A stretch of 7,744 nucleotides of DNA, from NCBI GenBank assembly GCA_003511125.1, contig DOJV01000004.1:1-7744 (forward strand). Direction: 5' to 3'. This stretch comes from Candidatus Uhrbacteria bacterium (GTDB taxonomy: Bacteria > Patescibacteriota > Patescibacteriia > UBA9934 > GWF2-40-263). A model generated the notes under the pieces. The model saw nothing but the letters and a program-made list of their open reading frames with translations, made no database searches and was not told where the DNA came from. Each line of letters opens with the position of its first letter. The first letter of the stretch is position 1. Made by a program: the position numbers and the translations under genes. Positions 894-1,456 of this stretch are shown in pieces.

Positions 894-931
894 TTTGTAC
901 AAATAACGACGATCGACGGAAATCGTACAAA
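894..931. repeat. Left imperfect palindrome of the Cas2-like unit
   Basis: This 38-bp inverted repeat is centred between 912 and 913 on CGATCG. Its outer arms (TTTGTAC 894-900, GTACAAA 925-931) pair perfectly; the left inner arm has five mismatched positions. Its right half, 910-931, is identical to 1434-1455 of the downstream palindrome, and 894-900 matches 1418-1424. It ends one base before the ATG at 933, so its transcript would fold at the start codon. Confidence 0.85.
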
Positions 932-932
932 T

Positions 933-1415
933 ATGCGCAAAACTCCTGTAAAACCTTTAAAAATCAAAGCTAATACACCAGCTTTTGAATTAATACAGCT
1001 CTTAGGAGACCGTGGGGCAGCGAATGATTTCATATTTTTAAAAAAACCTGGTTATTTCAGCCCAAATCGTTTCTACAACGCCGTTAGAAAATTAAAAGAT
1101 AACAAGCTGATCAAAAAAGAAAAAGATAAAATTAAACTTACCGAAAAAGGGGTCTTGGAATACGCAAGAACTAAAATTGAAAAAACAGACCTTCTTCCTG
1201 AAGGAACGGACTGCATTGTGGTTTTTGACATTCCTGAGACAGAAAGAAAAATTAGAGACTTTTTATCAAAACTCTTAGAAGAAATTGCCTTTATAAGAAT
1301 TCAAAAAAGCGTCTGGATATCTCCTTTTGACAACGCCGCGGCTCTTAAAGAACTACTTCAACTCCTTGGATATAAAAAATGGGTTAGAATTTATAACGGA
1401 CAAGAATGCAAATAA
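933..1415 (+). CDS. Stand-alone Cas2-like protein with N-terminal winged-helix (PaaX-like) domain
   Basis: The product is a 160-aa cytoplasmic protein. Residues about 15-80 form a winged-helix-like DNA-binding module, with a helix pair around NRFYNAVRKLKDNKLI and a wing ending in KLTEKG. Residues about 92-158 match the Cas2-like ferredoxin fold: strand CIVVFDIPE with Asp99 at the place of the Cas2 metal-binding aspartate, an amphipathic helix, then IQKSVWISPFD, equivalent to the QxSVF strand of Cas2. This two-domain layout is that of PaaX-type regulators, and such proteins are often annotated as Cas2 in CPR genomes. No cas1, other cas gene or CRISPR array is here, so a role in spacer acquisition is unlikely. 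I chose ATG 933 because ATG 888 would translate the left palindrome; 888 would add 15 residues. No clear Shine-Dalgarno is seen. AT-rich codons contrast with glyA. Possible roles are palindrome-binding repressor, nuclease or mobility protein. Confidence 0.8.
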   Translation: MRKTPVKPLKIKANTPAFELIQLLGDRGAANDFIFLKKPGYFSPNRFYNAVRKLKDNKLIKKEKDKIKLTEKGVLEYARTKIEKTDLLPEGTDCIVVFDIPETERKIRDFLSKLLEEIAFIRIQKSVWISPFDNAAALKELLQLLGYKKWVRIYNGQECK

Positions 1416-1416
1416 A

Positions 1417-1456
1417 TTTTGTACGATTTCCGTCGATCGACGGAAATCGTACAAAA
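1417..1456. repeat. Right perfect 40-bp palindrome
   Basis: This is a perfect inverted repeat with no loop and no mismatch, centred between 1436 and 1437. The left arm is TTTTGTACGATTTCCGTCGA. It starts one base after the TAA of the Cas2-like gene and ends 40 bases before the glyA start. As RNA it would form a long hairpin in the glyA leader followed by an A-rich, not U-rich, stretch, so on the + strand it is not a standard intrinsic terminator. On the minus strand a T-rich tract follows. Confidence 0.93.

Follow-up and report, generated by a model that had tools for sequence, protein, structure and literature searches.

A winged-helix/Cas2-fold protein encoded between paired palindromes: a dispersed palindrome unit in Patescibacteria organised like REP-RAYT

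What is a small Cas2-like gene doing between two related palindromes, just upstream of glyA, in a genome many of whose relatives are annotated as Candidatus Uhrbacteria or other Patescibacteria? The answer that we favor, with a probability of roughly 60%, has two parts: palindrome, gene, and palindrome form a unit organised like REP-RAYT, and the encoded protein, of predicted winged-helix/Cas2 fold, probably dimerises on its own palindromes and is predicted to assist in placing copies of them at new positions, mostly between genes.

The gene, its two palindromes, and its protein

The DNA analysed here (the window) covers bases 1 to 7744 of contig C8 in a source genome of 1.11 Mb and 67 contigs. 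The features at issue are the following.

893 to 932, no strand: left palindrome, imperfect, 14 of 20 pairs, centre CGATCG at 910 to 915, ending at the start codon; paired score 46.2
910 to 931, forward strand: 22-nt half of the left palindrome, identical to 1434 to 1455
933 to 1415, forward strand: Cas2-like gene, 160 codons and 160 aa, with a winged-helix-like N-terminus (residues ~10 to 85) and a Cas2/PaaX_M-like core (~92 to 157)
1417 to 1456, no strand: right palindrome, perfect, 40 bp, 20 of 20 pairs, no loop, centre CGATCG, one base past the stop
1434 to 1455, forward strand: 22-nt half of the right palindrome, identical to 910 to 931

An earlier note on this DNA had described a 160-aa Cas2-like gene flanked, with one base to spare, by two related palindromes with identical 22-nt right halves, one of them a perfect 40-bp inverted repeat, and all of this held on inspection: the left palindrome directly abuts the ATG at 933, and base 1416 alone separates the stop codon from the right palindrome. 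From base composition, the chance expectation for a perfect 40-bp palindrome in the window is ~7e-9. An alternative in-frame ATG at 888 would give a 175-aa product, its frame crossing the left palindrome. The compositional distinctness claimed for the unit was likewise borne out, the gene having 34% GC compared with ~53 to 69% in neighbouring 400-base windows, with the caveat that the GC-rich sequence to the left is the end of the contig, since the window starts at base 1 of contig C8. Positions 1 to 830 are GC-rich (55–69%) and have no ORF longer than 153 aa on either strand; this stretch is possibly a contig-end artefact or foreign DNA.

Directly downstream of the unit lies glyA (SHMT, PF00464, 2.8e-160; likely start at 1497), as the note had placed it. 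Among the relatives, 37 have glyA, and we compared the loci from 29; none carried the gene or a palindrome match within ~1.5 kb on each side, where that much sequence was available, so a glyA-specific leader element was rejected. Homologues of the gene were found at many loci, rather than always at glyA.

The 160-aa protein of the window matched PaaX_M (PF20803, 6e-15), CRISPR_Cas2 (PF09827, 1.4e-6), and cas2 (TIGR01573, 5e-7), the last two above their own cut-offs. An AlphaFold2 model of the protein had a mean pLDDT of 94.6. A fold search with this model gave zero matches at E ≤ 0.001; its top match was E. coli PaaX (PDB 8a39, E 2.2e-3), and many of the following ranks were Cas2 chains. A profile search against PDB sequences, in which all E-values were weak, related the core to Cas2 and the N-terminus to ArsR/AspA-type winged helices.

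The PaaX family has three domains, PF07848, PF20803, and PF08223. Like PaaX (PDB 8a39), the protein described here has a winged helix followed by a Cas2-like PaaX_M domain, and it is associated with a palindromic site. Unlike PaaX, the Cas2-like family is without PF08223 (0 of 39 members at E ≤ 0.01) and has PF07848 in 1 of 39, PF20803 being present in all 39 at the same threshold; two longer homologues outside the 39-member alignment, P0012 and P0014, do carry PF08223. It also differs from PaaX in having palindromes on both sides of the gene and many gene copies per genome (0 to 10). The protein shares with CRISPR Cas2 a Cas2-type core and an aspartate (D99) that ends the first core strand and is invariant in the family alignments A1 and A4. 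It differs from CRISPR Cas2 in its extra winged helix, in the single palindromes in place of a repeat array (no CRISPR-type array occurs within the window), and in its surroundings, where neither cas1 nor any other cas gene was found beside it among the six window ORFs scanned. PF01797 (Y1/HUH) matched neither the window protein (E ≤ 1) nor the 39 family members (E ≤ 0.01), and no catalytic step for the Cas2-like protein was identified in this analysis.

Paired palindromes across the family

Whether the arrangement in the window is particular to this locus was addressed with 68 homologous copies, made up of 31 that were used out of 35 matches in 16 of 39 genomes and 37 that remained from 47 loci from named genomes after the removal of 10 duplicates. 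The pair score takes the best two palindrome centres, the first close to the start codon and the second close to the stop, and rates them by the agreement of their four arms. In a first, narrower test, 52 of the 68 copies scored above 25, compared with 1 of 202 control ORFs drawn from those loci. With a wider window that allows for wrong start or stop calls, a related pair was present around 55 of the 68 copies and 0 of 209 control ORFs, and therefore the paired arrangement is not due to chance. Homologues devoid of flanking palindromes, which would have counted against the reading of the earlier note, are accordingly not the pattern in this family.

The 13 copies that failed the pair test were kept in the denominator. 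By eye, one perfect palindrome lies near the gene in L003, L008, L016, L023, L112, and L029 (L003 and L008 are truncated by contig ends), and an imperfect one in L031; L002 has two imperfect palindromes, both downstream, weaker pairs are seen in L022, L105, L109, and L123, and the remaining failure is L096. Three copies were added later, with scores of 43.0, 28.4, and 19.8; L160 and L169 pass, and L163, at 19.8, fails. One copy, L120, lies on a contig labelled Lentisphaerae, which may reflect mis-binning or transfer; of its two related palindromes, the right one follows the stop codon at a distance of ~270 nt.

Most palindromes share a centre, which is GATC in 71 of 104, GGTC in 13, and GGCC in 9 (52 of 71 copies, those with scores above 27). 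The size of the unit is narrow, with a median of 591 bp from centre to centre (range 524–840). The right palindrome lies at a median of 24 nt behind the stop codon and the left one at a median of 29 nt upstream of the start. Compared with each other, the two palindromes of a copy match better as direct repeats in 22 cases and as inverted repeats in 8, with a tie in 24.

Outside the centre, the arms vary from copy to copy, yet left agrees with right within a copy. Arm similarity follows protein identity (Mantel r 0.277, 52 copies; 0 of 2000 permutations as high), with 65% of half-site positions shared in the 7 pairs above 60% protein identity and ~31 to 33% in pairs below 30%. An example is provided by L014 and L017, which are one unit found at a corresponding position in two congeneric species, with flanks 74 to 79% identical: the palindromes of the two species differ, and left–right agreement is kept within each. 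Since this unit was kept in place in both species, units can be stable. Recognition of its own palindromes by the protein is likely.

Several of these results are also what one would expect under the main rival explanation, a PaaX-like autoregulated DNA-binding protein, with the flanking palindromes as its own operators, solo palindromes elsewhere in the genome as a small regulon or chromosome-organising sites, and ordinary horizontal transfer as the route by which the genes spread. The top fold match is the repressor PaaX, a DNA-type dyad with a conserved centre is present, the distance of the left palindrome from the start codon fits an operator, the arms follow protein relatedness, and the L014/L017 unit stayed in place between species. 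Autoregulation would explain the left palindrome and the dyad; it assigns no obvious operator role to the right palindrome behind the stop, and it fits less well with up to 10 gene copies in a genome, most of those inspected having private palindromes. Together with the behaviour of the solos described below, this leads us to regard autoregulation as the whole explanation as rather unlikely.

The kind of symmetry bears on whether the palindromes act as DNA or as RNA. In alignment A3, which holds the better palindrome of each pair for 41 of 51 copies (ten with poorer symmetry or odd centres were omitted), 94.3% of the 615 arm cells pair and G-U makes up 9 of about 580 paired cells; because so many cells pair with only 9 G-U, the symmetry is of the DNA type, in a sample chosen for good palindromes. 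Some Cas2 proteins are RNases, and endoribonuclease Cas2 is among the PDB names matched, so that the palindromes might instead work as RNA hairpins, around the gene and behind other genes, in the termination or stabilisation of transcripts; the Cas2-fold protein would then bind RNA or be an RNase. A terminator-like match on the minus strand overlaps the right palindrome of the window, and many palindromes lie behind stop codons, as this explanation would have it. Against it, the centre itself is symmetric, which the loop of an RNA hairpin does not have to be, G-U pairs are as scarce as just given, one palindrome lies upstream of the gene, and no known RNA family of Rfam matched in the window. 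We consider a role as RNA hairpins improbable.

Solo palindromes, their hosts, and their turnover

Palindromes also occur away from the gene. In G005, the palindrome of unit L019 is present at 13 sites (0 to 2 mismatches over 24 bases), 11 of them outside the unit and one of these 11 just upstream of a second unit, L032; a reversed control pattern gave 0 matches in this genome. The flanks of the G005 sites are unrelated, and the outer arms vary, mostly symmetrically. G070 has four identical 38-bp palindromes and three related ones at seven loci, one beside the gene, and in G170 the exact 34-bp palindrome of the gene recurs at two solos, with a third solo off by one position per arm. Solo palindromes, which the earlier note had suggested looking for, are thus found both in relatives and in the source genome, where five were seen, three matching L003 or L004 and two matching no resident unit; none was found there for the window's own palindrome sequence. 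A Y1_Tnp (IS200-type) gene lies ~1 kb from unit L003 on contig G000:C28.

Palindrome numbers go with carriage of the gene. We searched with R1, a covariance model built from palindromes of some of the searched genomes, and the counts include both strands (and so count sites twice) as well as gene-flanking palindromes. Among 39 relatives, at least 3 R1 matches were found in 14 of 16 that have the gene and in 0 of 23 that do not. The 14 palindrome-rich relatives have 7 to 25 matches each, and in the two that fall short, G010 and G015, the units (L022, L018, L030) are built around other centres. Of the gene-less relatives, 17 had no R1 match and six had one or two; of the six loci viewed, one per relative, four (L137, L140, L141, and L143) look terminator-like by eye and two (L135 and L144) look real. 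The same held class-wide in 285 genomes, with at least 3 matches in 22 of 51 gene-bearing genomes compared with 2 of 234 gene-less ones, and any match in 28 of 51 compared with 15 of 234 (E ≤ 0.01); when the genomes of the first set were left out, the figures for at least 3 matches were 15 of 42 and 2 of 226. The filters were strict, and 23 of the 51 gene-bearing genomes had no match at E ≤ 0.01. G083 (15 matches) and G158 (4 matches) have palindromes though no gene at E ≤ 1e-6.

From the R1 matches listed, we took 59 solos from 13 genomes, with 1 to 11 per genome. The best or tied-best match was a gene palindrome of the own genome for 34 of the 59 (permutation mean 2.8, maximum 18) and, without the 11 solos of G005, for 23 of 48; for 25 of 59, the best match was not a unit of the own genome. 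At L150, L153, L157, L163, L170, and L183, palindromes lie within ~150 bases of a contig end, as is seen for assembly-breaking repeats.

By rough ORF calls, 29 of the 59 solos lie in tandem spacers, 11 in convergent, and 7 in divergent ones, with 7 inside called ORFs and the remaining 5 at contig edges. For neighbouring spacers, the corresponding numbers are 14, 6, and 4, which is no different. A difference was seen for stop codons: 28 of 40 solos with a flanking stop lie within 45 nt of the stop, compared with 20.7 expected (26 of 20000 simulations as high).

Solos turn over, since solo sites differ between same-genus species. Two solo sites of G002 could be placed in the same-genus G019, which is without a palindrome at both and has no palindrome match genome-wide by R1; a third compared spacer is much longer in G019 than in G002. 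A comparison of G070 with G136, of the same genus, showed one retained solo and two missing ones, one of the latter aligned by its left flank only. No clean empty site or target duplication could be made out, the spacers of sister species being too diverged for exact insertion points to be read; the gene locus of the G002/G019 comparison (the L020 site) is not a clean empty site either, as it also lacks the neighbouring gene. A solo common to G029 and G024 sits in a ~430-bp stretch (L196:4842–5270, L193:4921–5338) that is 88.7% identical, other flanks of these two genomes being ~74 to 79% identical; part of the stretch recurs in L183, and it is perhaps a conserved RNA or another repeat.

These properties of the solos fit a regulon less well. 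They lean toward stops and not starts, divergent spacers hold few of them, their sites differ within a genus, and their outer arms differ among sites in a mostly symmetric manner, all of which counts against the PaaX-like autoregulator.

Could the palindromes be ordinary REP/IS200-type repeats that are moved by a Y1 (RAYT-like) transposase encoded elsewhere, with the Cas2-like gene as a passenger? Y1_Tnp was found in 24 of 39 relatives (E ≤ 0.001), with seven genes in the source genome, and one of the Y1 genes (G000:C58:2982) lies ~130 bp from solo L148 (~1013–1064). The association of Y1 with palindromes is weak (Fisher p 0.097), however; the palindrome-rich G018, G024, and G029 are without a Y1 match, eleven Y1 genomes are without a palindrome match, and it is the Cas2-like gene around which the palindromes pair. 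A passenger role for the Cas2-like gene is, in our estimate, very improbable.

A point against the REP-RAYT-like reading that we favor is that no near-identical gene units were found at different loci among the 68 copies: the best within-genome pair has 71% protein identity, and DNA matches between gene copies in G207, G066, and G103 reach ~73% over a few hundred bases. No recent transposition was found, 34 stretches of viral contigs that matched a pattern (with the subset alignment A2) encoded no relative, and plasmids and phages gave no match to protein P0001. The reading of the earlier note, either a tiny mobile element with palindromic ends or a selfish gene that regulates itself, is partly supported: paired palindromes, solos, and many loci were found, and no trace was found of movement of the unit, the closest within-genome pair of proteins being at 71% identity and no clean empty site being readable.

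Comparison with REP-RAYT and a predicted mode of action

According to PMC2817692, rayt genes always lie between two REPs, gene and REP coevolve, and REP abundance is tied to the cognate gene; PMC3733652 places REPs mostly behind genes and describes rayt genes as having neither multiple copies nor changes of place. The system described here is like REP-RAYT in that a gene lies between two short palindromes, cognate solos occur in the genome and often behind genes, gene and palindrome coevolve, and palindrome abundance is tied to the presence of the gene. Because rayt genes are likewise described there as free of multiple copies and changes of place, the absence of near-identical gene units is not decisive.

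The differences from REP-RAYT are as clear as the likeness. The protein is of winged-helix/Cas2 fold without a Y1/HUH match, the palindromes are near-perfect, have no loop, and are mostly GATC-centred, and copies are few, with 1 to 11 solos per genome in the 13 genomes inspected as opposed to hundreds. A GTAG or CGTC tag beside the palindrome is described for REPs in PMC3733652, and none was noticed by eye in the Patescibacteria palindromes. The system also differs from insertion sequences, as there are no near-identical gene copies at different loci (68 copies), although solo palindromes do recur identically.

From this pattern, we infer that the Cas2-like protein binds and mobilises the palindromes. 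A Cas2-like dimer would sit on the dyad with one winged helix per half-site, and at the left palindrome, it might also repress its own promoter. Spread would begin with the protein cutting at the palindromes or bridging them, with Asp99 as a candidate metal ligand; host repair or replication would then copy the palindrome and, more rarely, the gene. A bolder version makes the Cas2-fold protein, by itself, the recombinase in a novel class of mobile DNA: it would recognise, cut, and copy its own no-loop palindromes, the units being autonomous and the solos non-autonomous elements. We put this forward tentatively, as possible but doubtful; if true, REP-RAYT would have a counterpart run by Cas2, and the system might reveal how the handling of repeats by Cas2-type proteins arose.

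Among open-licence PMC papers, we found no description of dispersed repeats tied to a Cas2-fold protein. The likeness to REP-RAYT is in organisation and not in protein descent. If the protein spreads the palindromes, as predicted, they would be selfish repeats driven by a protein related to one of CRISPR, the Cas2 fold would have a role in mobility outside CRISPR adaptation, and very small bacterial genomes would have REP-like parasites of their own. The system is tractable, with a protein of 160 residues, a cognate site of ~34 to 40 bp, and dozens of naturally occurring pairs of protein and site that differ in specificity.

Two observations concern the distribution of units between families. 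L010 and L023, distant copies in different families, both lie upstream of a gene that by eye resembles uvrC. A 28-bp palindrome core is common to L008 and solo L133 (both G001) and to L034 (G023), which belong to two families, and this hints at inter-family transfer.
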